From contig JAHBXR010000001.1 of NCBI GenBank assembly GCA_019636335.1, forward strand, positions 424,712-488,711: 64,000 nucleotides of DNA, read 5' to 3'. The stretch comes from Pirellulales bacterium (GTDB lineage: Bacteria > Planctomycetota > Planctomycetia > Pirellulales > JAEUIK01). Of this stretch, positions 31,144 to 49,643 are shown piece after piece. Both the position numbers and the translations under genes were made by a program. The stretch's first letter is position 1. Each line of letters starts with the position of its first letter. The notes under the pieces were generated by a model. The model was given only the letters and a program-made list of their open reading frames with translations, had not been told where the DNA came from and made no database searches.

Positions 31144-34100
31144 TCAGTGCGGGACGTCGCCATCGTGGCCTAGCGCGGCCATGTAGGGGAGCGCATCGGG
31201 ATCTTCGTCTCCGTCATCCTCGTCTTCCGTATGCGGTCGGTGGGCGTTGATCCATTCGATCACATAGTAGAAGACCGGCGTGAGAAAGATGCCGAAGACG
31301 GTCACGCCCAGCATGCCGCCGAAGACGGCCGTGCCGAGGGTACGGCGCATCTCGGCGCCGGCGCCGTGCGAAAGGATCAGCGGCACGACGCCGATGATGA
31401 AGGCCAGCGACGTCATGACGATGGGGCGGAGGCGGAGCTTGCAGGCCTCGAGGGTGGCCTCGCGCACGCTGACCCCCCGTTCGCGCTCGGCCTTGGCGAA
31501 CTCGACAATGAGGATCGCGTTCTTGCACGCCAGGCCGATGAGCACGACGAAGCCGACCTGCGTGAAGATATTCACGTCGAGGCTGGCAAATAGCACCGCC
31601 GCGACCGAGCAGAGCAGGCACATCGGCACTACCAGAATCACGGCCAGCGGCAGGGCCCAGCTTTCGTACTGCGCGGCCAGCACGAGAAACACGAGCACGA
31701 CGGCCAGGGCGAAGACGATCATCGCCGTGTTGCCGGTCTGAAGCTGCAAGAGGGCCAGCTCGGTCCATTCGGCGCGCATCATGCGGGGCAGGTTGGCCTT
31801 GGCGACCTGTTCCATTTCGGTCAGGGCCTGACCGGTGCTCACCCCCTGTTCGGCGGCGCCGTTGATGGGGGCGGCGCGATACAGGTTGTAGCGCGTGATG
31901 ACGGTCGGCCCTTGCACGTCGCGCACGTCGCTGAACGCGGAGAGGGGGACCATGTTGCCCTCGGCGTTGCGAATCTTGAGTTGCTTGAGATCCTCGATCT
32001 GGTTGCGGAAATCGGGCCCGGCCTGGACGTTGACCTGCCAGGTGCGGCCGAAACGGTTGAAGTCGTTGACGTAGAGGGAACCGAGATAGACCTGCAGCGT
32101 GTTGAAGACGTCGGCCATGTTCAGGCCCATCCGTTTCGCCGCGGTGCGGTCGATATCGAGATAGAGCCAGGGGCTGTTCGCGCGGAAGCTGGAGAAGAGA
32201 TCGCGCAGCCCCGGCGTTTTGTCCCCCTCCTGCACGATGCGCTCGGCGACGTTTTGCAGCGTCTCGCTGCCGGCGTCGCCGCGATCTTCGATCACGATCT
32301 TGAATCCGCCCGCGGTGCCCAGGCCGTCGACCGGCGGCGCGCCGAAGACGTTGACGGTTCCTTCGCCGATGGCGTTCTTCACGGCGTCTTGCAGTTGCGC
32401 GGCGATGACGTCGCCGGTGAGTCCCTTTTCAACGCGATGCTCGAAGGTGTCGAGCATCACATACATGGCGCCGAAGTTGGGAGACGAGGCATTCAACAAG
32501 ATCGATTGACCGGCGATGGCCACGGTGTGTCGCACGCCGGGAATGGTGGCGGCGATCTTTTCGATCTGCAGCACCGTTTGCTGGGTGCGCTGCAGCGAGG
32601 CCGAGTCGGGGAGTTGCACGTTGACGAGCAGGTAGCCTTTGTCTTGCGGCGGAATGAAGCCCTTCGGCGCGGCGACGAAGCTCTGCCAGGTGAGCAGCAG
32701 CAGGCCGCCATAGACGAAGAGCACGATCAGGCTGACGCGCAAGAGTCCGCCGACGACGCGGGTGTAGACGCTGGTCGCGCGGTCGAAGACGCGATTGAAG
32801 GCGCGGAAGCCCGCCCCCAACAGACGGTTGAGCCAGGGGGCGGCGAACCATCCCACGATGGCCCCCAGGAGGACGGCAATCCAAGGCCAGTAGTCGATCC
32901 ATCCCGCGGCGACCGGGGCCTCGCCAGGGGCGTGCCCCGCGGCGAACCCGCGTGCGACGAGTTCCCAGCCCAACCAGGCGCCGGCGATGGGAAACGCGAT
33001 GCGCGGCAGAGGGGGCGTGGCCTCGTTGCCGCGCGGACGGAGCAGAATGGCGGTGAGGGCGGGGCTGAGGGTCAACGAATTGAACGCTGAAATCACGGTC
33101 GACACGGCGATCGTCAGCGCGAATTGCCGGAAGAACTGCCCGGTGATGCCGGAGATGAACGCGCAGGGGACGAACACCGCGCTCAGCACGAGTCCCACGG
33201 CGATCACCGGCCCGGAAACCTGTTGCATTGCCCGAACCGTGGCGTCGCGCGGCGAGAGTCCGTGCTCGATATGATGCTCGACCGCTTCCACGACCACGAT
33301 CGCGTCGTCCACCACGATCCCGATGGCGAGCACCAGGCCGAAAAGCGTCAGGTTATTCAGGCTGAAGCCGATGGCCGCCATGGCCGCGAACGTGCCGACC
33401 ACGGCCACGGGCACGGCCACCAACGGAATGATGGCCGAGCGCCAGTTCTGCAGGAACACGAGCACCACGATGGCCACCAGGATGATGGCGTCGCGCAGCG
33501 TCTTGAACACTTCGTTGATTGATTCCTCGATGAACGGGGTCGTGTCGTAGACGATCGAATACTCGACTCCCGTCGGAAAACGATCTTTCAACTCGGCCAT
33601 CTTCTCGCGGACCAGTTGGGCGACGTCGAGGGCGTTCGAGCCGGGCAACTGATAGATGGAGAGGGCGACGGAAGGCTGTCCGTCGAGCGTACACGATTGG
33701 TTGTAGACGAGCGCGCCCAACTCGATATTGCCGACGTCGCGCAGCCGCACGAAACGGCCTTCGGCGTCGGCCTTGAGAATGATCTCGCCGAATTGCTCGA
33801 CGTCGATCAGGCGCCCCATCGTGCTCATCGTGAACTGGAAGACCTGTCCCGACTCGACCGGGGGCTGGCCGATCTGGCCGGCGGCCACCTGGGTGTTCTG
33901 CTGCTCGATGGCGCGGACCACATCGGTGGTGGTCAGCCCGCGGTAGGCCATTTTTTCGGGATCGAGCCAGAAACGCATGCTGTAGTCGCGCTGGCCGATG
34001 TAGGTGATGTCGCCCACCCCTTCGAGGCGCGAAAGTTCATCCTTGAGCTGAATCGTGGCGTAGTTGCTCAGGTAGAGATTGTCGCGCGAATCGTCGGGCG

Positions 34101-34533
34101 AGAAGAGGTTGACGATCATCAGCACGCTGGGGGACTTCTTCTTCACCATGATGCCGCGTCGCTGCACGAGATCGGGCAACGTCGGCTGGGCCAGCGAGAC
34201 ACGGTTCTGCACCAGCACCTGGGCCATGTTCAGATCGACGCCATGCTTGAACGTGACGGTCAGCGTGTAGACGCCGTCGTTCGTACACTGCGACGACATG
34301 TACAGCATGTTCTCGACGCCGTTCACCTGCTGCTCGATCGGCGCGGCGACCGTGTCGGCCACGACCTGGGCGTTCGCGCCGGGGTAGACGGCCGAGACCT
34401 CGACCGTCGGCGGCGTGATCTCGGGATACTGCGCGATCGGCAAGGCGATGAGCGCGACGCCCCCGGCCAGGGTGATGATGATCGACAACACCGAGGCGAA
34501 GATCGGTCGGTTGATGAAGAATTGCGAGAACAA
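31144..34533 (-). CDS. RND efflux transporter, inner-membrane permease (second copy)
   Basis: 1129 residues. AcrB/HAE1-type architecture: N-terminal membrane helix (FFINRPIFASVLSIIITLAG), two large periplasmic loops and 12 predicted membrane segments. The proton-relay Asp-Asp is in GIVVDDAIVVVEAVEHHI and the TM10 Lys is in LACKNAILIVEFAK. It exports drugs or other amphiphiles with proton motive force. It follows the other RND gene with a 9-bp gap and shares one adaptor. The pair could form a mixed trimer like MdtB/MdtC, but this is inference. The C-terminal tail is acidic. Confidence 0.95.
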   Translation of the reverse strand: MFSQFFINRPIFASVLSIIITLAGGVALIALPIAQYPEITPPTVEVSAVYPGANAQVVADTVAAPIEQQVNGVENMLYMSSQCTNDGVYTLTVTFKHGVDLNMAQVLVQNRVSLAQPTLPDLVQRRGIMVKKKSPSVLMIVNLFSPDDSRDNLYLSNYATIQLKDELSRLEGVGDITYIGQRDYSMRFWLDPEKMAYRGLTTTDVVRAIEQQNTQVAAGQIGQPPVESGQVFQFTMSTMGRLIDVEQFGEIILKADAEGRFVRLRDVGNIELGALVYNQSCTLDGQPSVALSIYQLPGSNALDVAQLVREKMAELKDRFPTGVEYSIVYDTTPFIEESINEVFKTLRDAIILVAIVVLVFLQNWRSAIIPLVAVPVAVVGTFAAMAAIGFSLNNLTLFGLVLAIGIVVDDAIVVVEAVEHHIEHGLSPRDATVRAMQQVSGPVIAVGLVLSAVFVPCAFISGITGQFFRQFALTIAVSTVISAFNSLTLSPALTAILLRPRGNEATPPLPRIAFPIAGAWLGWELVARGFAAGHAPGEAPVAAGWIDYWPWIAVLLGAIVGWFAAPWLNRLLGAGFRAFNRVFDRATSVYTRVVGGLLRVSLIVLFVYGGLLLLTWQSFVAAPKGFIPPQDKGYLLVNVQLPDSASLQRTQQTVLQIEKIAATIPGVRHTVAIAGQSILLNASSPNFGAMYVMLDTFEHRVEKGLTGDVIAAQLQDAVKNAIGEGTVNVFGAPPVDGLGTAGGFKIVIEDRGDAGSETLQNVAERIVQEGDKTPGLRDLFSSFRANSPWLYLDIDRTAAKRMGLNMADVFNTLQVYLGSLYVNDFNRFGRTWQVNVQAGPDFRNQIEDLKQLKIRNAEGNMVPLSAFSDVRDVQGPTVITRYNLYRAAPINGAAEQGVSTGQALTEMEQVAKANLPRMMRAEWTELALLQLQTGNTAMIVFALAVVLVFLVLAAQYESWALPLAVILVVPMCLLCSVAAVLFASLDVNIFTQVGFVVLIGLACKNAILIVEFAKAERERGVSVREATLEACKLRLRPIVMTSLAFIIGVVPLILSHGAGAEMRRTLGTAVFGGMLGVTVFGIFLTPVFYYVIEWINAHRPHTEDEDDGDEDPDALPYMAALGHDGDVPH

Positions 34534-34542
34534 GCCGTTACC

Positions 34543-37500
34543 TCATTTGGAACGCGGCGCGGTGGAGACGCTGCTGCCGGCGTCGGCCTGCGTGGCGAAC
34601 TCTCCGGAAGAATCGCTCGCCTGCCTGGATTCGTCGTGCGACTCGTTGGCGATCCGCAGGATCTTCGGGCGCGGTAGCGTTTTGCGCCGCAGGGGCACTC
34701 GGGCCAGGCTCGCCACGCGGCGGGCCGTCGCGCCGGCCAGACGGCGGACCGGCCGCAGGCTGAGCGTGCCGAGCACCAGGGCGTTGAACTTGCGCAGCCG
34801 CGGCGAAGCAAACAGCTTCGTGTGACTCAGGTAGTCGATCGTGTAGAAGAAGACGGGGGTAAGCACGAGCCCGAACAGGGTGACGCCCAACATGCCGCTG
34901 AAGACGGCCACGCCCAGGGCTTTGCGCATCTCGGCGCCTGCGCCGTTCGAGATGATGAGGGGCACGACCCCCAGGATGAACGCCAGCGAGGTCATGACGA
35001 TCGGTCGCAAGCGCAAGCGGCAGGCGGCCAGGGTCGCCTCGAAGCGGGGCACCCCGGCGACGCGCTGTTGCTTGGCGAACTCGACGATGAGGATCGCGTT
35101 CTTGCTGGCGAGCCCCACCAGCACGACGAAGCCGATGCGCGTGAAGATATTGACGTCCAGGCGGGCGATGCTCACGCCGATCAAGGCGCTGAGCAGGCAC
35201 ATGGGCACGACGAGAATCACCGCCAGCGGCAGCGACCAGCTCTCGTACTGCGCGGCGAGCACGAGAAAGACCATCACCACGGCAAAGCCGAAGATGACGG
35301 TCGCCGTGTTGCCGGCCAGCAGCTCGAGGTAGGACATGTCGGTCCACTCGAAGCTCATGTTGCGCGGCAAGGTGTTCTTGGCCAGGGTCTCCATGATGGC
35401 GATGGCCTGGTTCGAACTGACGCCGGGGGCCGCGGCGCCGTTGATGGCGGCGGCCGGATACATGTTGTAGCGCGTCAGCACCATGGGGCCGTTCACTTCC
35501 TGCACGGTCGCCAGTGACCCGAGCGGCACCATCACCCCTTCGGCGTTGCGCACTTTTAACTTCGAGATGTACTCGGGGCGGTCGCGGAATTGGGGATCGG
35601 CCTGGATGATGACCTGCCAGGTGCGGCCGAACTTGTTGAAGTCGTTGACGTACAGCGAGCCTTGATACATGCGCAGCACGTTGGCGAAATCGGCCGCGTA
35701 GACGTGACGCAGAATCGCTTGCGAGCGATTGAATCGCACGTAGTACTGCGGCACGTTCGCCCGGAAAGAGGAGAAGAGCGTCTGCAGGCCGGGCGTCTCG
35801 TTGCCGAGCTTGACCAGCCGCTCAGTTTCTTCCTGGAGCACCTGCGGCCCGACGTCGCCGCGGTCCTCGATCATGATGCTGAAGCCGCCGGCCCGACCGA
35901 CGCCACGAATCGGGGGCGGCGGGAAGACCTGGATGTTCGCCCCCTTGATCTGCGCGCCAAACTCCTTGCGCAGGTAATTGGCCACCGCTTCGCTCGAAAG
36001 TTCAGGCGTGCGGCGGTGGTGATAATCTTGCAGGTTGACGAACATCGAACCGAAGTTCGAACCAAACGCCTGCAACACGAACGACTGGCCCGTGATCCCC
36101 GAGCAGTGCTTGACCCCTTCGTGCTGGCGGGCGATCTCGACCATCTGATCGATGACCGTCTGGGTACGCTCGAGCGAGGCGGAGTCGGGCAACTGTACGC
36201 TGCAGAGCAGATAGCCCATGTCTTGCGAGGGGATGAACCCCTTGGGAGTGGCGACAAAGCGCCACCAGGTGACGCCGAGCAGGCCCCCGTAGATCAACAG
36301 GCAGATCAGGCTGGCGCGCAAGACTCGCCGCACGACCGCGGTGTAGACGTTGGTCGTGAATTGGAAGGCGCGATTGAAGCCGCGGAAAAACCAGCTCAAC
36401 AACCGATTCGATGGTCCCGCGAGCAGGGCTCCGACGAGCGCTCCGCCGAGGACCAGGATCGTGGGTGCAAGCCACGAGGCGAAGCCCGGGCTTGCGCTGG
36501 CGCTATCGATCAGCCAGAGGCGGGTACGTTCGTCGTAAAGATACCAGGCCAACCAGGCACCACCGATCGGAAAGCAGAGCCAGGGCAGGGGGGGCGCCGC
36601 GTGCTTGTCGTGACGCTTGAGCAGCACGGCCGTCAGGGCCGGACTGAGCGTGAGCGAATTGAAGGCCGAGATGATCGTCGACACGGCGATCGTCATGGCG
36701 AACTGGCGGAAAAATTGCCCGGTGATGCCGGAGATGAACGCGCAGGGGACGAACACGGCGCTCAGCACGAGCCCCACGGCGATCACGGGTCCGGAGACTT
36801 GCTCCATGGCCTTGATCGTGGCCTGGCGCGGCGAGAGCCCATGCTCGATATGATGCTCGACCGCTTCGACCACGACGATGGCGTCATCCACCACGATGCC
36901 GATCGCCAGCACCAGGCCGAAGAGTGTCAGGTTGTTCAAGCTGAACCCGAAGACCGCCATGGCGGCGAACGTGCCGACGATCGCCACCGGCACCGCCACG
37001 AGCGGGATCAAGGCCGAACGCCAGTTCTGTAGAAAGAGCAGCACCACGAGGGCCACGAGCACGATAGCATCGCGCAGCGAGTTGATTACCTCGCGGATCG
37101 ATTCGCGTGTGTAGGGCACGGTGGTAAAGCCGACGTCGTAAGCGAGCCCCTCGGGAAAGGTCTCGCTCAGCTCCTTCATCTTGGCCATGACCAGGTCGTG
37201 CGTCTCGAGCGCGTTCGCGTCGGGACGTTGGAAAATCGCCAGGAAGACCGTCGGCTGGCCATCCATGCTGTTGTTGACGTCGACGCTCTTGGCGGCCAAT
37301 TCGACCCGGGCCACGTCGCGAATGCGGACCGTGCGCCCCTCGGAGTCCGCCTTGATGATGATCTGCTCGAAATCCTCGACCTCGTCGAGACGCCCTAGCG
37401 TGCTGAGCGTAATTTGCAGGTTTTGATCGTCGGGAGATGGCTGCTGACCGATGGCGCCGCTGGCCACCGGGGTGTTTTGCTCTCGGATGGCCGCGGCCAC

Positions 37501-38112
37501 GTCGGCCGGCGTCAGGTTGCGCGCGGCGAGTTTTTCGGGATCGAGCCAGATGCGCATGCTGTAATCGCGCTGGCCGAAGACGTTCACGTCTCCCACACCT
37601 TCGACACGGGCGATTTCGTCTTTAATCTGCAGCACGACATAATTGCTCAAATAGAGCTGATCGTAGCGGCGGTCGGGGGAGAAGACCGCCAGGCCCATCA
37701 AGATGTCGGGCGAACGCTTGCGCGTGCTGACGCCGGTCTGCTTGATGACGTCGGGCAGGGCGGGGACGGCCAGGCTGACACGGTTCTGCACCAGCACCTG
37801 CGCCATGTCGACGTCGACGCCGTTTTGGAACGTCACCGACAGGTTGTACTGCCCGTCGTTCGTGCAAGTCGACGACATGTACATCATGCCTTCGACGCCG
37901 TTGACCTGCTGCTCGATCGGCGCGGCCACGGCCTGCGCGACGTCGCGGGCACTCGCCCCGGGATAGGAACAGCTCACCGACACCGTGGGGGGCGAGACCT
38001 GTGGAAACTGTGCCACGGGCAGCGTCCACAGCGCCACGGCTCCCGCCAACGTGATCACGATCGACAGCACCGCGGCAAAGATCGGGCGATCGATGAAGAA
38101 GCGTGAAATCAC
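34543..38112 (-). CDS. RND efflux transporter, inner-membrane permease (first copy)
   Basis: 1189 residues, longer than usual because of a C-terminal basic/Ser-rich tail of about 85 residues after FFYTIDYLSHTK. AcrB/HAE1 family, beginning FFIDRPIFAAVLSIVITLAG. The relay Asp-Asp is in GIVVDDAIVVVEAVEHHI and the TM10 Lys in LASKNAILIVEFAKQQ. It lies 54 bp downstream of the adaptor gene, in the order tetR-mfp-rnd-rnd. It is clearly a paralogue of the following gene, probably by tandem duplication. No outer-membrane factor is in the window. Confidence 0.95.
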   Translation of the reverse strand: MISRFFIDRPIFAAVLSIVITLAGAVALWTLPVAQFPQVSPPTVSVSCSYPGASARDVAQAVAAPIEQQVNGVEGMMYMSSTCTNDGQYNLSVTFQNGVDVDMAQVLVQNRVSLAVPALPDVIKQTGVSTRKRSPDILMGLAVFSPDRRYDQLYLSNYVVLQIKDEIARVEGVGDVNVFGQRDYSMRIWLDPEKLAARNLTPADVAAAIREQNTPVASGAIGQQPSPDDQNLQITLSTLGRLDEVEDFEQIIIKADSEGRTVRIRDVARVELAAKSVDVNNSMDGQPTVFLAIFQRPDANALETHDLVMAKMKELSETFPEGLAYDVGFTTVPYTRESIREVINSLRDAIVLVALVVLLFLQNWRSALIPLVAVPVAIVGTFAAMAVFGFSLNNLTLFGLVLAIGIVVDDAIVVVEAVEHHIEHGLSPRQATIKAMEQVSGPVIAVGLVLSAVFVPCAFISGITGQFFRQFAMTIAVSTIISAFNSLTLSPALTAVLLKRHDKHAAPPLPWLCFPIGGAWLAWYLYDERTRLWLIDSASASPGFASWLAPTILVLGGALVGALLAGPSNRLLSWFFRGFNRAFQFTTNVYTAVVRRVLRASLICLLIYGGLLGVTWWRFVATPKGFIPSQDMGYLLCSVQLPDSASLERTQTVIDQMVEIARQHEGVKHCSGITGQSFVLQAFGSNFGSMFVNLQDYHHRRTPELSSEAVANYLRKEFGAQIKGANIQVFPPPPIRGVGRAGGFSIMIEDRGDVGPQVLQEETERLVKLGNETPGLQTLFSSFRANVPQYYVRFNRSQAILRHVYAADFANVLRMYQGSLYVNDFNKFGRTWQVIIQADPQFRDRPEYISKLKVRNAEGVMVPLGSLATVQEVNGPMVLTRYNMYPAAAINGAAAPGVSSNQAIAIMETLAKNTLPRNMSFEWTDMSYLELLAGNTATVIFGFAVVMVFLVLAAQYESWSLPLAVILVVPMCLLSALIGVSIARLDVNIFTRIGFVVLVGLASKNAILIVEFAKQQRVAGVPRFEATLAACRLRLRPIVMTSLAFILGVVPLIISNGAGAEMRKALGVAVFSGMLGVTLFGLVLTPVFFYTIDYLSHTKLFASPRLRKFNALVLGTLSLRPVRRLAGATARRVASLARVPLRRKTLPRPKILRIANESHDESRQASDSSGEFATQADAGSSVSTAPRSK

Positions 38113-38166: not shown

Positions 38167-39348
38167 CTAGCGCTCGGTCGTCAAACCGGGAAGGGCCGCC
38201 TGTACGGCGGGGGGCTCCGTCAGCTTGGCGTCGACCTTGGCCCCCGGCATGACACGCTGCAGCCCCACGACCACAACTTTTTCGTTCGGAGAGAGGCCAT
38301 TCGTCACGACGCGCAGGCCCGAGTGGAGACTGCCCACATCGACGCGGCGGTAAGCGACGATCCCTTCATCATCGACGACGTAGAGGAAACGCTGTCCCTG
38401 GTCGGTGCCCAAGGCCGACTCGGGGACGAGCAAGGCGCGGTAGGGCTCGCCGATCGGCACGCGCACGCGTACGAACAGACCGGGCGAGAGCAGTCGATCG
38501 TTGTTGTCGAACACCGCACGAACGCGCAAGGTGCCCGTGCTAGGGTCGACGCGGTTGTCCTCGAAGTTGAGCTGACCCTGGTGGGGATAACCTTTTTCGT
38601 CGGCCAGCCCCATCAACACGTCGGCGTGCGTGCCGGCCATGGCGGCGACGGTTCCTTCCGATGAGGCGCGCCGCAAGCGGAGCAAGGTGCGTTCGTCGAG
38701 ATCGAAGTAGACCCACATCGGATTCTGCGACACGACCCGCGTGAGAATCGTGTCGTCGGCCTTGACGAGATTGCCCGGATCGATGAAGGGGCGGCTGACG
38801 CGACCCGCGATCGGCGAGCGAACCTTGGTATAGCCCAGGTTGACGTTGGCGATGGTCAGCGAGGCCTGCGCCGATTTCAGCGCGGCTTCGGCCTCGGCCA
38901 CGTCGCTGGTCATGAGATCATGGGCCGATTGGGTGATGACGCCGCGGGCGAGGTTCTCTTTCGAACGCTGGAAGTCGAGCTTCAATCGTTCGAGTCGCGC
39001 CTCGGCCTGGGCGACGAGCCCTTCGGCGCGCGCGGCTTCCGCCTTGTAGTAGGGGGGATCAATGTCGAACAGCACGTCGCCGGCCTGCACCTCGGCGCCG
39101 TGCTTGAAGTGGACGGCGGCCAGGTAGCCGGTAACGCGGGCGCGGACGTCGATGCTCGTCACCGCTTCGGTTTGTCCGGTGAAGTCTTCATAGTCGCGGA
39201 TGTCTTGATAGACCGGCAGTGCCACTTCGACCTGCGGCGGCAGCATCGGTGGCATGGGGGGCGGGGCCTGACCGCAGCCCGCCAAGGGGAGGGCGAGCAG
39301 GCTGAGGGGGAGGATGTACAAGTAGCTCTTCACGATGGCGCTCTTCAA
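38167..39348 (-). CDS. RND membrane-fusion protein (AcrA-type lipoprotein)
   Basis: 393 residues from the TTG at 39348; the GTG at 39333 is an attractive alternative because it gives a compact signal peptide ending at the lipobox LAGC-GQAPPP. Family order is clear: barrel and lipoyl halves around a coiled-coil hairpin (AARAEGLVAQAEARLERLKLD), and the repeated region RSPIAGRVSRPFIDPGNLV. It links the two downstream RND permeases to an outer-membrane channel, which is not encoded here. It lies 2 bp after the tetR stop, in the same operon. Confidence 0.93.
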   Translation of the reverse strand: MKSAIVKSYLYILPLSLLALPLAGCGQAPPPMPPMLPPQVEVALPVYQDIRDYEDFTGQTEAVTSIDVRARVTGYLAAVHFKHGAEVQAGDVLFDIDPPYYKAEAARAEGLVAQAEARLERLKLDFQRSKENLARGVITQSAHDLMTSDVAEAEAALKSAQASLTIANVNLGYTKVRSPIAGRVSRPFIDPGNLVKADDTILTRVVSQNPMWVYFDLDERTLLRLRRASSEGTVAAMAGTHADVLMGLADEKGYPHQGQLNFEDNRVDPSTGTLRVRAVFDNNDRLLSPGLFVRVRVPIGEPYRALLVPESALGTDQGQRFLYVVDDEGIVAYRRVDVGSLHSGLRVVTNGLSPNEKVVVVGLQRVMPGAKVDAKLTEPPAVQAALPGLTTER

Positions 39349-39350
39349 CT

Positions 39351-40034
39351 CTAGCCGTTTTGGCCGTTCCGGAGACTTGGGTCGTTTCGCGGCTGCTCTT
39401 CGGGCGGGGGATTGCGCCGGCGGCCGTGCTCGTTGAGCAGGCCATAGAACACCACGTCGATGATGTCCTGCACCTGCGCCTCGACCGAAACCTGTCGCTG
39501 CGAAAAGTGATTCGTAAACATCGTGCCGTACATCAGGTCGCCCAGCACGTCGAGGATGCGGTCGACCGGAATGTCGCGGATTTGGCCTTGGGCGATATAG
39601 CCGCGGTACAGCAGTCGCAGGCGTTCGCGGTGGGCCTCGCGATGTTCGATATAGGTGGGCTTTTTACGATCCTTGAACAGAGCCCGCTCGTGTACGAAAA
39701 GTTCGCACAGTTCGGGGTGCTCGGCGAAGAACGTGAGATAGGACCGCACGACCTGGGCAATGCGGGCGGGGGGATCCTCGATGTGCTCGATGCTGGCATC
39801 GATCGAGGCGCACAACTCGCGCATGCCACGATCGGCGGCGGCGAGAAACAGCTCGCGCTTGCTGGGGAAATAGCGGTAGAGGGTGCCTTTGCCGATGCCG
39901 AGTGCATCGGCCAGCAATTGGGTATCGGTGTCGGCATACCCACGCTCGGCGAAGAGCTTGGTGGCGACATCGAGAATCTGTTCTCGGCGATCGAGTGTTC
40001 TTACGGTGGACAAGTGGGCAAATCCTGCGGTCAA
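39351..40034 (-). CDS. TetR-family transcriptional regulator
   Basis: 227 residues with a TTG start at 40034 supported by GGGGGGTAAGC immediately upstream. The N-terminal helix-turn-helix (ILDVATKLFAERGYADTDTQLLADALGIGKGTLYRYFPSKRE, about 20-60) is typical of the AcrR group; the C-terminal ligand domain is all helical. It likely represses its own efflux operon. A perfect 32-bp palindrome lies just upstream of the start and is the probable operator. The inducer is unknown. Confidence 0.93.
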   Translation of the reverse strand: MTAGFAHLSTVRTLDRREQILDVATKLFAERGYADTDTQLLADALGIGKGTLYRYFPSKRELFLAAADRGMRELCASIDASIEHIEDPPARIAQVVRSYLTFFAEHPELCELFVHERALFKDRKKPTYIEHREAHRERLRLLYRGYIAQGQIRDIPVDRILDVLGDLMYGTMFTNHFSQRQVSVEAQVQDIIDVVFYGLLNEHGRRRNPPPEEQPRNDPSLRNGQNG

Positions 40035-40045
40035 GCTTACCCCCC

Positions 40046-40077
40046 ACGTGGCGGACTGACTGGTCAGTCCGCCACGT
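40046..40077. promoter_or_regulatory. Perfect 32-bp palindrome, probable TetR operator
   Basis: ACGTGGCGGACTGAC (40046-40060), a 2-bp centre TG, and GTCAGTCCGCCACGT (40063-40077): 15-bp arms without a mismatch. It lies 11 bp upstream of the tetR start codon. The core GACTGAC-TG-GTCAGTC has the form of TetR/AcrR operators. It would allow self-repression of the efflux operon, and might also affect the divergent transporter gene at 40301. Confidence 0.8.
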
Positions 40078-40258
40078 CAATCGTAAGTCAACCCTGTCGG
40101 ATCGTCAACGGCGAAGGGCCAGTTTTGACGGTTCGCAGGGTTGTACCGGGCCGTTTCGTGTTACCCGAGGATGCTTCGGGGGGGCGCCCCGTGGACAGAA
40201 GCACGGCCGGGGAACGCGGCGTCCAGGTGGGCGCTCGACGAGGTACCCGGGACGTTGC

Positions 40259-40264
40259 TATTAT
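40259..40264 (+). promoter_or_regulatory. Putative -10 element before the APC transporter
   Basis: TATTAT lies 36 bp upstream of the ATG at 40301 with no clear -35. It would give a short leader. Confidence 0.35.
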
Positions 40265-40300: not shown

Positions 40301-42325
40301 ATGACACAGCCTCCTGCCGAAGGGCAGGTACGCCAGCCCTCTGGGCCCAGCCATTCTGCTGCCCCTCCTGCCGCCGCCTCGACGGCATCTGGCAGTTCCC
40401 ACCACCAGAGTGCTTGGCTCTGGGTCATGTGCCTGACGGGGGTCGACTATTTCAGCACGCTCGGCTACCAGCCTTCGCTGGCCTTCGAGTCGGCCGGTTC
40501 GCTCGCCCCTTTGGCTACCGGCGTGCTGGTGCTGGCCACCCTTTTCGGAGCCCTGCCGGTCTACTGTTACGTGGCGGGACGTTCGCCGTTCGGGCAAGGA
40601 TCGATCCACATGCTCGAAGAGCTGGTCCACGGCTGGACCGGCAAGTTTCTCGTGCTGACGCTGCTGGGATTCGCGGCGACCGACTACGTGATCACCAAGA
40701 CCCTCTCGGCTGCCGACGCCGCCGAACATCTGTTGCACAACCCGCACTGGCGCCAGGTGGCGCCCTTCCTGCAGAGCCTGAGCGAACATCAGCAGCGGAT
40801 GGTCGTGACGCTGACGCTATTGATCCTGCTCGGCATCAGCTTCGTGCGGGGCTTCCGCGAGGTGATCTGGATCGCGGCGATCATCGTGTGCGTCTTTCTC
40901 GGCTTGAACGCCGTGGTCGTCGGGAGTGGGCTCGTCTATCTGATCGCCCATCCCGGGTTGCTCGGGCATTGGTGGAACGACGTCGTCACGGGCAATTGGC
41001 ACCTGCACCACGAGCCGATCCTCGCAGGGACCGATTTCTGGACGATCCTGGCGATCGCGCTGTTGCTCTTTCCGAAGCTGGCACTGGGCTTGAGCGGATT
41101 CGAAACCGGCGTGGCGGTGATGCCGCTGGTGCGCGGCGACGAGGACGACGATCCCGCACTACCGGCGGGACGCATCCGTAACACGCGCAAGCTGCTGACG
41201 TGTGCCGCGGTGATCATGTCGCTGTATCTGCTGGGATCGGCGATGGCAACGGCGACACTGATTCCGCCGGAGTCGCTGGGTCGCGATCAACCGGCGGAAC
41301 ATCGTGCGATGGCTTACCTGGCCCACGGGGAGAGTCCGTATTTTATCAATCCGCTGTTTGGGGTGTTCTTTGGCACGATCTACGACATCAGCACGGTGCT
41401 GATCCTGGCCTTTGCCGGCGCGAGCGCGATGGCGGGTTTGTTGAATCTCGTGCCGCAGTACCTGCCGCGTTATGGGATGGCGCCGGGTTGGGCGCGGGCG
41501 GCGCGACCGCTGATTATCTTGTTTACGCTCATCAATCTGCTGGTGACGTGGATCTTCAATGCTGATGTGAGCAAGCAAGGGGGAGCCTACGCCACCGGCG
41601 TGTTGGTGTTGATTGTCAGCGCCTGCATCGCGACGGTGATCGACACGTTCCGCCACCGCGCAGGGGCCTGGTATCGGCGTCTGGCGTGGCCCTACCTGGC
41701 AATTACGATTCTGTTTCTGTACACGATGTCGGCCAACATGTTCGAACGTCCCGACGGCATCAAGATCGCCAGTTGCTTTATCGTGGCGATCGTCGTGTCG
41801 TCGCTCTTGTCGCGCGTCATGCGGAGCAAAGAGCATCGCTTTCAGGGATTCGTGTTTGCCGATCCCGAGTCGCGATTTCTATGGGACAGCTTGAAGCACC
41901 TGGAGTTTCCGGTGCTGGTGCCGCACCGTCCCGGACGGCGTAGGCTGGAAGTCAAGGAAGCGAGCATCCGCGAGCGTCACCGGCTGGGGCCGGAGGTGCC
42001 GATCGTGTTCGTGGAAGTGCAGCTTGGCGATACGAGCGAATTCGAGCATCAGCCGGTCTTGTCGATCGAGAATGTGGGGGAACGCTTCGTCATTCGCGTG
42101 GCCGGGGCGGCGAGCATTGCCCACGTGGTGGCCTCGGTAGCGTGCGAGCTTTCGGCCGTGGGAAAGCCGCCGGAGATCCATTTCGGCTGGTCGGACGAGA
42201 GCCCGCTGTCGGCCAGCGCCAGCTTCTTTCTCTTCGGCGAGGGGAACGTTCCCTGGATCGTGCGTGAACTGATCCGCAAGACGATTTCCGATCCTGATCG
42301 ACAGCCGCGCGTCATCGTGGGATGA
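40301..42325 (+). CDS. APC-superfamily amino-acid/cation permease-like transporter
   Basis: 674 residues from the ATG at 40301. The first ~40 residues are Ala/Ser/Pro rich, then about 12 predicted membrane segments, starting WLWVMCLTGVDYFSTLGYQPSLAF. The signature FETGVAVMPLVRGD and GFAATDYVITKTLSAADA fit the APC family (amino-acid or KUP-like transport). A soluble C-terminal domain follows from about residue 500 to the end (FQGFVFADPESRFLWDSLKHLEFPVLV). The substrate is not certain. It is divergent from tetR. A convergent cytochrome gene follows. Confidence 0.85.
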   Translation: MTQPPAEGQVRQPSGPSHSAAPPAAASTASGSSHHQSAWLWVMCLTGVDYFSTLGYQPSLAFESAGSLAPLATGVLVLATLFGALPVYCYVAGRSPFGQGSIHMLEELVHGWTGKFLVLTLLGFAATDYVITKTLSAADAAEHLLHNPHWRQVAPFLQSLSEHQQRMVVTLTLLILLGISFVRGFREVIWIAAIIVCVFLGLNAVVVGSGLVYLIAHPGLLGHWWNDVVTGNWHLHHEPILAGTDFWTILAIALLLFPKLALGLSGFETGVAVMPLVRGDEDDDPALPAGRIRNTRKLLTCAAVIMSLYLLGSAMATATLIPPESLGRDQPAEHRAMAYLAHGESPYFINPLFGVFFGTIYDISTVLILAFAGASAMAGLLNLVPQYLPRYGMAPGWARAARPLIILFTLINLLVTWIFNADVSKQGGAYATGVLVLIVSACIATVIDTFRHRAGAWYRRLAWPYLAITILFLYTMSANMFERPDGIKIASCFIVAIVVSSLLSRVMRSKEHRFQGFVFADPESRFLWDSLKHLEFPVLVPHRPGRRRLEVKEASIRERHRLGPEVPIVFVEVQLGDTSEFEHQPVLSIENVGERFVIRVAGAASIAHVVASVACELSAVGKPPEIHFGWSDESPLSASASFFLFGEGNVPWIVRELIRKTISDPDRQPRVIVG

Positions 42326-44944: not shown

Positions 44945-47900
44945 ATGTGGATCGTACGACTCGCCCTGCAGCGTCCTTATACGTTCGTGGTAATGGCCCT
45001 GTTGATCGTGGTGCTGGGCGCGACCTCGATCACGCAGATGCGGACCGACATTTTTCCCGAGATCGACATTCCCGTCATTACGGTCATCTGGACCTATAAG
45101 GGAATGGAGACGAGCGAGGTCGAACGGCGCATCACGACCTATAGCGAATACGCGATGTCGTCGAACGTGAACGACATCAAGCGGATGGAATCGCAGACGC
45201 TCAATGGCGTGGCGGTGATCAAGATCTACTTTCACCAGGGGGTGGACGTCAGCACGGCCATGTCTCAGGTCACCTCGGTCAGCCAGGCGATCCGGGCCGT
45301 GATGCCTCCTGGCATTCAGCCGCCGATCATCGTGCGGTTCAACGCGTCGAGCGTGCCGGTGCTGCAAGTCGGCCTGAGCAGCGAGACGATGTCGGAGGAA
45401 GAGGTCTACGACTACGGGCTCTACATCCTGCGCACTCAGCTTTCGACGGTGCAGGGACTGACGTTGCCCACACCGTACGGCGGCCGCGAGCGGCAGGTGA
45501 TGGTCGATCTCGATCCGCAATTGTTGCAGGCGAAGGGGATCTCGCCCAAAGAGGTGGCCGACGCGATCAACGCGTACAACCTGGCCTATCCGACGGGCGT
45601 AGCACGGATCGATACGCACGAGTATCCCGTCACCTTGAACAATACGCCCCCCACGCCCGATCGCTTTAACGACATTCCGCTCAAGGTGGTCGGTGGGGCA
45701 ACGATCTTTATGCGCGACGTCGCGCAGGTCCGCGATGGCAGCACCTCGCAGACGACGGTGGTGCGCCGGAACGGCAGTCGTGGGGCACTCGTAACGCTGC
45801 TGAAGAACGGCAACGCATCGACGCTCGACATCGTGAACCAAGTGAAGGGGATGATGCCCGAGATCGTGGCGGCGGCCCCGAAGGAGCTGCACATCGAATT
45901 GCTGTTCGATCAATCGTTGTTCGTCACCGCGGCAATCGAAGGGGTGGTGGTCGAGAGCATCATTGCCGGTCTGCTCACGGCGACGATGATCCTGGTCTTT
46001 CTCGGCAGTTGGCGCAGCACGCTGATCGTGGCGGTGTCGATACCACTCGCCATCCTGTCGTCGATTATCATGCTCTACGCCCTGGGACATTCGCTCAACG
46101 TGATGACCTTGGGCGGTTTAGCGCTGGCCGTCGGCATTTTGGTCGATGACGCGACGGTCGAGATCGAGAACATCCACCGCAACCTGGGGATGGGCAAACC
46201 GTTGCGGCAGGCGATTCTCGACGGGGCCATGCAGATTGCGGGACCGACGTTCGTCTCGACGCTGACGATCAGCATCGTGTTCGTCTCGGTGTTGTTTCTC
46301 GATGGACCGGCCCAGTATCTCTTCACCCCGCTGGCGCTGGCCGTGGCGTTCGCCATGCTGGCGTCGTACCTGCTGTCGCGCACGATCGTGCCGACGATGG
46401 TCGATTACCTGCTGCCGGCCGAGCTGTCTCATGGTCACCACGGTGCATCGCAAGGATGGTTTGGGCGGCTGCACGCCGGCTTCGAACGCCGTTTCGAACA
46501 GGTCCGCGACGCGTACGTGCGGGTCTTGAAATGGAATCTCGAGCACCGGGGGCGGGTCTTCCTCGCCTTCGCCCTGATCGCCGCGAGCGGCTTCATGCTG
46601 TTGCCCTGGGTGGGACGCGACTTCTTTCCCACGGTCGACACGGGCCAATTCCGCTTGCACGTGCGTGCGCCCGCCGGCAGCCGCATCGAAGAAACCGAGC
46701 GTTACTTCACGGCGGTAGAGCAGGCGATTCGCGAGATCATCCCCTCGGACGAAGTCGAGCTAGTGCTCGACAACATCGGCCTGCCGAATCGCACCTACGC
46801 GATGGCCTTTGGCGACAGCGCCACGACCGGCATGGCCGACGGCGAGATCCTGGTATCGCTTGCGCATCATCGCCAGCAGTCGACCCCCGCGTACATGGCT
46901 CGGCTGCGCGAAGAATTGCCGCGACGTTTCCCACAGTTGACGTTCTTCTTCCAGCCGGCCGACATCGTCAGCCAGATTCTGAACTTCGGCTTGCCGGCGC
47001 CGATCGATATTCAACTCGCGGGACTGAATCGGCAGGAAAACTACGCCCTGGCCAGCGAGATCGCCGAACGCATCCGCCACATCGAGGGGGTGGCCGACGT
47101 CCATCTCCACCAGGTGATGAACGTGCCGAAGTTGCACATCGACGTCGATCAGACGCGCGCCGGCGAGTTGGGCTTCACGCAGCGCGACGTCGCCGACAGC
47201 GTGCTGGTATCGTTGTCGGGCAGCGGCCAGGTACAGCCGAACTACTGGGTCGATCCCTCGATGGGAATCTCCTATCTGGTCGAGACGCGGACACCGACCT
47301 ACAAGCTCGACAACATCGACGCCTTGAACGGATTGCCGCTGGCGTCGCGCAGCAGCCAGGGGGTGCAGTTGCTCTCGAATGTGGCCAAGGTCGAACGCGG
47401 CGTGACGGCCGAAGTGGCAAATCACACGAATGTACAACCGACGTTCGATGTCTATGCCAACGTGCAGGCCCGCGATCTGGGGAGCGTGGCAGGCGAGATC
47501 AATCGTATTCTCGACGAATATCGCGCGCGGCTTGCCCCGGGCAATACGATCACCATGCGAGGGCAAGTCGAGAGCATGGAGTCGGCCTTCTGGCGATTGG
47601 GTCTGGGGCTGATCTTTGCCGCCGTGCTGGTTTACCTATTGATGGTGGTGAATTTCCAGAGCTGGCTCGACCCGTTCATCATCATCACGGCGCTGCCGGG
47701 GGCCTTCGTGGGCATCGTGTGGTCGTTGTACCTGTGGCAGACGACATTTAGCGTGCCCGCCCTGATGGGGGCGATCATGTCGATTGGCGTGGCCACGGCG
47801 AATAGCATCTTGCTGGTCACGTTTGCCAACGAGCAGCGTGAGGCGGGTTCCTCGGCCTTCGAGGCGGCACTCGAGGCGGGTCGAACCCGCATGCGGCCTG

Positions 47901-48100
47901 TGTTGATGACCGCCGCGGCGATGATCATCGGCATGCTGCCCATGTCGCTCGGCCTGGGGGAAGGGGGGGAGCAGAATGCCCCGCTGGGACGGGCCGTGAT
48001 TGGCGGTTTGGCCGTGGCCACCGTGACCACGCTGCTGTTCGTGCCGGTGGTCTACAGCTTATTGCGTCGCGACCAAGTGTCCGCCGCGCCGGTGGAATGA
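44945..48100 (+). CDS. RND efflux transporter, inner-membrane permease (third copy)
   Basis: 1051 residues. The AcrB-like fold is clear (periplasmic loops, 12 helices), but this protein is of another branch than the two at 31144-38112: Asp401-Asp402 of the TM4 relay are kept (GILVDDATVEIENIHRN), but the TM10 Lys is replaced by Ala952 in SIGVATANSILLVTFAN. This change is common to a subgroup, as far as I recall, so transport may use another relay residue. The C terminus PVVYSLLRRDQVS is normal. The gene is followed by an adaptor, the reverse of the usual order. Confidence 0.93.
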   Translation: MWIVRLALQRPYTFVVMALLIVVLGATSITQMRTDIFPEIDIPVITVIWTYKGMETSEVERRITTYSEYAMSSNVNDIKRMESQTLNGVAVIKIYFHQGVDVSTAMSQVTSVSQAIRAVMPPGIQPPIIVRFNASSVPVLQVGLSSETMSEEEVYDYGLYILRTQLSTVQGLTLPTPYGGRERQVMVDLDPQLLQAKGISPKEVADAINAYNLAYPTGVARIDTHEYPVTLNNTPPTPDRFNDIPLKVVGGATIFMRDVAQVRDGSTSQTTVVRRNGSRGALVTLLKNGNASTLDIVNQVKGMMPEIVAAAPKELHIELLFDQSLFVTAAIEGVVVESIIAGLLTATMILVFLGSWRSTLIVAVSIPLAILSSIIMLYALGHSLNVMTLGGLALAVGILVDDATVEIENIHRNLGMGKPLRQAILDGAMQIAGPTFVSTLTISIVFVSVLFLDGPAQYLFTPLALAVAFAMLASYLLSRTIVPTMVDYLLPAELSHGHHGASQGWFGRLHAGFERRFEQVRDAYVRVLKWNLEHRGRVFLAFALIAASGFMLLPWVGRDFFPTVDTGQFRLHVRAPAGSRIEETERYFTAVEQAIREIIPSDEVELVLDNIGLPNRTYAMAFGDSATTGMADGEILVSLAHHRQQSTPAYMARLREELPRRFPQLTFFFQPADIVSQILNFGLPAPIDIQLAGLNRQENYALASEIAERIRHIEGVADVHLHQVMNVPKLHIDVDQTRAGELGFTQRDVADSVLVSLSGSGQVQPNYWVDPSMGISYLVETRTPTYKLDNIDALNGLPLASRSSQGVQLLSNVAKVERGVTAEVANHTNVQPTFDVYANVQARDLGSVAGEINRILDEYRARLAPGNTITMRGQVESMESAFWRLGLGLIFAAVLVYLLMVVNFQSWLDPFIIITALPGAFVGIVWSLYLWQTTFSVPALMGAIMSIGVATANSILLVTFANEQREAGSSAFEAALEAGRTRMRPVLMTAAAMIIGMLPMSLGLGEGGEQNAPLGRAVIGGLAVATVTTLLFVPVVYSLLRRDQVSAAPVE

Positions 48101-48132
48101 TTTTCTCGGGTCACCCGTGTAAGGAACCATCG

Positions 48133-48170
48133 CGGGGTCGGTATTCCCCGGAAAGGGAAGCCGAGCCCCG
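48133..48170 (+). promoter_or_regulatory. Hairpin between the RND permease and its adaptor
   Basis: CGGGG-T-CGG (48133-48141) can pair with CCG-AG-CCCCG (48161-48170), and TTCCC/GGGAA can pair within the loop. ATTTTGAT follows. It may act as a partial terminator or lower adaptor production. The adaptor gene has its own ribosome site GGAGG further downstream. Confidence 0.35.
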
Positions 48171-48194
48171 ATTTTGATAGGAGGAGCCAGGATC

Positions 48195-49643
48195 ATGATT
48201 GCCCCCGCGAATCGCGATAGCCACACGAGAATCCCGTCGCTCGATCGTTCGCAGCGTGCCGCAGCGGTTGCCGACGCAGCCCCGGAAGTACCGTTGCCGG
48301 CAGGAAGCCCGTCCGTCGGGCGTCGTCAGGGGCGCGCCCGGCGGACGCTGCGCTGGCTGGGCGTAGCGGTACTGGTCGTGGGGATTATCGCGGTGCTGGG
48401 GCAGTCCTGGCATGGCGGCACCCACGAAACGGCGCACGCGTCGCCGCGCGGTATGCCGACGTTGCGAACCGTGACGATCGAACGCCCCACGCCGGCCACG
48501 GCGGCCAAGGTCGAGTTGCCCGCCAGCGTGCGACCGTGGCAAACGGCCACGCTCCACGCGCGTGTGAGCGGTTATCTCACCGCCTGGCATCGCGACCTCG
48601 GCGAGCGTGTCCGCGCGGGAGATCTGCTGGCCGAGATCGAGGCCCCGGAGCTCGATCAACAGTTGGCCGAAGCCGAGGCCCTGACGCGCGAAGCAATCGC
48701 CTCGAACGTACAGGCGCAGGCCGAGTTGGTCGAAGCCGAGGCTGACCTGAAAGTGACCGAAGCGCAGTTGGTGCGCGTGCAGGCCGAAGTGGCGCTCGCC
48801 AAGAGCCAACTCGCACGGCGACAAAAGCTGCTCGTCAATCGCACGGTGACGCAAGAAGAGTTCGAGACGTTCGAGCGCGAAGTCGAGGCGCGCACGGCGG
48901 ACGTGGCCGCGGCCGAAGCCGATGTCGCACGGCGCAAGTCGAATCTTTCGACCCGGGCGGCGGTGATCGAGGCGCGCGAGGCCTTTGCCAAGAGCCGGCA
49001 ATCGAACGTCGAACGCTTGCGCGAATTGCAGGGCTTCAAGCGAATCGTCGCGCCGTTCGACGGCATCGTCACGCGCCGCAGTGCCGAGGTCGGCATGCTC
49101 GTGAACGAAGGTAAGGAGCCGATCTATGTCGTCGAGGATATGCGCCGCGTGCGCGTGCAGGTGAGCGTGCCGCAAAGTTATGCCGCCCGAACGATTCCGG
49201 GGACCGCGGCCACGGTACGCGTGCCCGAGTCGGAAGGAGAATCCGTCGAGGCAACGGTGACGCGGATTGCCGAGTCGGTCGATGCCGGCAACCGAACGAT
49301 GCTCGCCGAAGTGGAACTGGACAATACGAACCGCCGCTTTCAGCCAGGGAGTTTTGCCCGGGTCGTGCTCGAACCGCAGGAGCATGCCTCGCCATGGACC
49401 ATTCCGACCAGCGCTCTTTCGATGCGAGTGGATGGGCCGCACGTGGCCGTGGTGGATGAGCGGGGCGAAATCGAGCTGCGACGGGTGCAACTGGGGCGCG
49501 ACTTGGGATCGCGCATTGTGGTGATCGAAGGCATCACGGGGATCGAACGCCTGGTGATCAATCCGACCGATGACATGACTACGGGGACTCGCGTGCAGGC
49601 GAACGTATCGGACGAACCGGCAGAGTCGATAGCACAGCGTTGA
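48195..49643 (+). CDS. RND membrane-fusion protein
   Basis: 482 residues from the ATG at 48195; AGGAGG lies 11-16 nt upstream. No lipobox; instead an N-terminal membrane segment (LGVAVLVVGIIAVLG) after a basic stretch anchors it. Lipoyl half (KVELPASVRPWQTATLHARVSGYL), a long coiled-coil hairpin (QLAEAEALTREAIASNVQAQAEL) and the second half FKRIVAPFDGIVTRRSAEVGMLV follow. It pairs with the RND permease just upstream. The outer-membrane factor is not nearby. Confidence 0.93.
   Translation: MIAPANRDSHTRIPSLDRSQRAAAVADAAPEVPLPAGSPSVGRRQGRARRTLRWLGVAVLVVGIIAVLGQSWHGGTHETAHASPRGMPTLRTVTIERPTPATAAKVELPASVRPWQTATLHARVSGYLTAWHRDLGERVRAGDLLAEIEAPELDQQLAEAEALTREAIASNVQAQAELVEAEADLKVTEAQLVRVQAEVALAKSQLARRQKLLVNRTVTQEEFETFEREVEARTADVAAAEADVARRKSNLSTRAAVIEAREAFAKSRQSNVERLRELQGFKRIVAPFDGIVTRRSAEVGMLVNEGKEPIYVVEDMRRVRVQVSVPQSYAARTIPGTAATVRVPESEGESVEATVTRIAESVDAGNRTMLAEVELDNTNRRFQPGSFARVVLEPQEHASPWTIPTSALSMRVDGPHVAVVDERGEIELRRVQLGRDLGSRIVVIEGITGIERLVINPTDDMTTGTRVQANVSDEPAESIAQR

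Follow-up and report, generated by a model that had tools for sequence, protein, structure and literature searches.

A 16-bp core within a perfect 32-bp palindrome as the very probable autoregulatory operator of a TetR-RND efflux operon in a Pirellulales bacterium

The analysed window, a stretch of 64 kb from the genome of a Pirellulales bacterium, carries a tetR-mfp-rnd-rnd operon on its minus strand, downstream of a palindrome at 40046-40077. The first gene of the operon (39351-40034, minus strand) encodes a TetR-family regulator with two domains above cut-off, the N-terminal TetR helix-turn-helix (PF00440; 66.9 bits, E = 1.3e-18) and a TetR-type C-terminal domain (PF17932, 26.8 bits; TetR_C_24, E = 6.5e-6). 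It is followed by the gene for an RND periplasmic adaptor (MFP) of the MexE/OqxA-like type (38167-39348, minus strand), recognized by domain and family profile matches, and by two tandem genes for AcrB-type RND permeases, permease 1 of the HAE1/AcrB type with 1189 aa (34543-38112, minus strand; profile matches) and permease 2 (31144-34533, minus strand), which are 62% identical to each other. On the other side of the palindrome, a divergent open reading frame of 674 aa (40301-42325, plus strand) encodes a membrane-protein-like product, by eye an amino-acid or KUP-type transporter, for which neither Pfam nor NCBIfam gave a match at E ≤ 0.001. Another pair of RND permease and adaptor genes is located at 44945-49643 on the plus strand; it runs opposite to the first efflux operon, from which it is about 5 kb away.

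The palindrome is a perfect inverted repeat of 32 bp, a strandless feature in which the arms ACGTGGCGGACTGAC (40046-40060) and GTCAGTCCGCCACGT (40063-40077), 15 nt each, are 100% complementary around a 2-bp TG centre, exactly as the earlier note had described it. A second inverted repeat with perfect 15-bp arms within 40 nt is not present in the 64-kb window. With the base composition of the window, perfect 15-bp arms with a spacer of up to 10 nt are expected about 0.0019 times per 64 kb and about 0.19 times per genome of 6.4 Mb, so that the judgement that chance is a very unlikely origin holds at about 0.002 such repeats per stretch of this length. The distance of 11 bp to the tetR start codon, on the other hand, stands only if translation starts at TTG 40034. 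A start at the in-frame TTG 40013, which has an AGGA nine bases before it and would lie 32 bp from the palindrome, is at least equally plausible. The shorter distance is uncertain because the TetR homologues are poorly conserved before about residue 12.

Within the palindrome, the conserved 16-bp core GACTGACTGGTCAGTC (40054-40069, strandless) occurs as a single exact copy in the 6.38-Mb genome. TetR relatives were gathered from genome collections and, after removal of duplicates, a stretch of 300-500 bases preceding each gene was scanned. The core as originally read was found with up to two mismatches before 48 of 68 relatives of at least 40% identity and in none of the coding regions that follow, which served as control, while inverted repeats of permuted half-sites gave a mean of 0.3 matches against the 48 of the true core, the maximum of 14 coming from a pattern partly shared with it. 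The degenerate consensus GACKGACNNGTCMGTC, i.e. GAC[T/G]GAC-NN-GTC[A/C]GTC, was present with at most one mismatch upstream of 70 of 85 tetR genes at 40% identity or above, a count that includes the window's own gene and applies a consensus derived from the same data. Of the 70, 52 belong to the 55 genes with an identity of 50% or more and 18 to the 30 in the 40-50% range; in the other 12 of these 30 homologues, more than one mismatch leaves no recognizable core, which counts against the operator reading. Some apparent non-carriers of the 300-base scan, including two Singulisphaera loci, possess an exact site slightly further upstream. The hosts of the core belong to the Planctomycetota, Omnitrophota and Melainabacteria and, at lower TetR identity, include Aliidiomarina. 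Some homologues of 39-42% identity from Melainabacteria and related Cyanobacteria bins (L043, L044, L045, L046, L053) lack the core and have a different palindrome of 28 bp, AATTAAnTGAC-N6-GTCAnTnAATT, several copies of which adjoin a TATAAT box; a switch of operator specificity is possible in these proteins.

A pattern search independent of tetR, covering 397 genomes from the order, retrieved the exact core in 25 genomes, with one site each, and 20 of these 25 sites adjoin a tetR homologue within about 700 bp. The comparison with relatives keeping the operon, which had been proposed as a check, thus places the core at the same position upstream of tetR, as expected for a TetR-family autoregulatory operator that is retained with its orthologous gene. 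Efflux genes remain neighbours of the site: the adaptor gene was found at 50 of the 70 sites, several of the loci being incomplete.

Conservation is confined to the inner part of the palindrome. Both half-sites of the core (positions 1-7 and 10-16) hardly vary, the exceptions being the outermost bases and the T/G and A/C alternatives, while the 2-bp centre is variable, with CA, TG and TA as the commonest pairs. Just outside the core, the two arms are correlated at one further pair (0.66 observed versus 0.44 expected), with little symmetry beyond it. The outer arms are already missing in an orthologue of the same family with an 81% identical TetR, where the core is extended by 2 pairs, and in the closest orthologue of the same order, where the extension is 1. 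What is kept of the 32-bp palindrome, therefore, is the 16-bp core with one correlated pair on each side. The outer arms belong to this genome only, and since their conservation fails already within the family, the length of 32 bp is lineage-specific.

Whether the whole 32 bp might nevertheless be functional, with two dimers binding cooperatively and the outer arms adding contacts, was weighed against these observations. The CgmR site of 32 bp and the QacR site of 28 bp, both of multidrug-resistance regulators, are bound by two dimers each, as dimers of dimers, and TetR-family operators in general span 15-32 bp, the longer ones carrying two dimers (PMC4150764). Long perfect arms are also over-represented, as 5 of 76 sites are extended by at least 5 pairs compared with a permutation mean of 0.8, in a test that is small and in which the sites are not independent draws. 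However, the closest same-family and same-order orthologues do without the outer pairs, and the long-armed lineages differ in their outer-arm sequence, so that a functional 32-bp unit is considered rather unlikely. In contrast to the QacR and CgmR operators of 28 and 32 bp, the conserved unit here amounts to only 16-18 bp. As known sites of the family reach 32 bp, the span is not exceptional either, and the earlier description of the arms as unusually long is at odds with the 22-32 bp of TetR-family regulators binding as two dimers (PMC4150764).

At L031, L112, L149 and L161 as well as in the window, the shared core is flanked by perfect outer arms of divergent sequence that add 6-10 pairs, namely 8 in this genome, 10 in a Melainabacterium and 6-7 in the others. 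That such arms arise repeatedly and independently, either by a template-switching-like mutational process that perfects palindromes or through a second dimer that favours symmetry without a fixed sequence, is a doubtful suggestion.

With respect to transcription, a sigma-70-like promoter is predicted for the tetR operon immediately before the palindrome, with the -35 hexamer TTGACG (40103-40108, minus strand) separated by 17 nt from the -10 hexamer TACGAT (40080-40085, minus strand). As this predicted promoter ends at 40080, transcription is expected to start inside the palindrome arm that comes first on the minus strand. The layout is the same or similar in most relatives, and a -10-like box lies not more than 19 nt upstream of the core at most of their sites. 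A core that closely follows a sigma-70-like -10 box is the arrangement expected of a repressor that blocks initiation, and the overlap with the predicted core promoter and transcription start, together with the inverted repeat beside tetR, is what characterizes TetR-family autoregulatory operators. Judged from the sequence, the palindrome is very probably the operator through which the TetR-family protein of the adjoining downstream gene (minus strand) regulates its own expression. The proposal that the repressor would block its own tetR-efflux operon from this site gains support from the core being kept in place before tetR in relatives with the operon.

Without inducer, a repressor dimer, or possibly a pair of offset dimers, would occupy GACTGAC-NN-GTCAGTC over the transcription start and stop RNA polymerase from initiating at tetR-mfp-rnd-rnd, while binding of a pump substrate to the C-terminal domain would release the repressor so that the pump is made. 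Binding, repression, dimer number and ligand release are in this scheme adopted from established TetR-family biology. The regulatory switch is almost certainly real, but of an ordinary, textbook kind.

That the operator serves the divergent transporter, alone or in addition to the tetR operon, is suggested by the location of the site within a divergent intergenic region. This is very unlikely, as the transporter gene accompanies the site in the window only and in none of 69 other loci, some of which are short, and as the transporter has its own predicted promoter at 40235-40264, about 160 bp from the palindrome.

An RNA hairpin in the 5' leader, acting as an mRNA stabilizer, attenuator or translational switch instead of the DNA being the functional entity, could be formed, since a transcript with the predicted start, within the left arm, would be able to fold into a stem of 12 bp with a 4-nt loop. 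However, at 21 of 76 sites the T/G (or A/C) alternative is present in one half-site only, which breaks a pair of the stem, and between sites the distance to the gene differs by more than 100 bases, with the -10-like box usually found just before the core. Such one-sided changes and a variable distance to the gene with a steady -10 box point therefore to a DNA-binding protein at the promoter, and with neither a poly-U tail after the repeat, nor a terminator call there, nor a match to an Rfam family, the hairpin reading is extremely unlikely. A transcription terminator is ruled out, the repeat having no T-run, and so is a structured RNA family, the sole weak Rfam match being located elsewhere and far below the gathering score. 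A mobile element, a REP-like repeat or a chance palindrome, compatible as each may be with a perfect inverted repeat located between genes, can be dismissed as next to impossible, given the single copy in the genome and a position kept across phylum-level distances.

A genome-wide regulon was rejected as, besides the one exact core, sites with one or two mismatches are no commoner in the genome than those of a reversed-pattern control, the two-mismatch sites being even fewer. The same genome encodes a second TetR of 48% identity (L115 4358-5158, minus strand), the gene of which is likewise followed by an adaptor gene; the one-mismatch core GACGGACGCGCCCGTC (G000:C3:84168-84183) lies about 160 bases ahead of the conserved domain of this TetR. 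Cross-talk between the two paralogous repressors is possible.

Literature searches retrieved no operator described for this TetR subfamily and none for planctomycete TetR-RND operons, and for the exact core sequence only unrelated matches. The consensus constitutes a well-defined motif for a TetR subfamily of Planctomycetota and several other phyla that is encoded next to RND pumps, and would allow prediction of efflux regulation in these little-studied bacteria.

As in the AcrR and MtrR TetR-RND modules, the repressor gene adjoins adaptor and RND permease genes, and the adaptor matches the MexE and OqxA models most closely; in contrast to those modules, two tandem permeases are present here. 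Compared with curated equivalogs, the TetR protein reached the cut-off of none, scoring 31.4 versus 271 bits for AcrR (PRK10668) and 30 versus 280 bits for MtrR. The likeness of the core to AcrR operators in particular, put forward in the earlier note, gained no support; the nearest published motif found is that of Thermus SbtR. The operator of Thermus thermophilus FadR, TTRNACYNRGTNYAA, which regulates fatty-acid genes, is likewise a TetR-family pseudo-palindrome with AC..GT half-sites (PMC5597230), but differs in sequence and spacing. Among the sites found, the most similar published one is the operator of the TetR-family regulator SbtR of T. thermophilus, TGACYRNNYRGTCA, with TGACTGACCGGTCA as one of the genomic SbtR sites; it gave two complexes in EMSA, ascribed by the authors to one and two dimers (PMC4948773). 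The SbtR operator shares with the site described here the palindrome of TGAC/GTCA half-sites and the overlap with promoter elements. While SbtR prefers TGAC/GTCA 6 bp apart and has a predicted regulon of many unlinked genes (PMC4948773), the Pirellulales core consists of GAC-K-GAC half-sites around a 2-bp centre and its exact site is unique in the genome.
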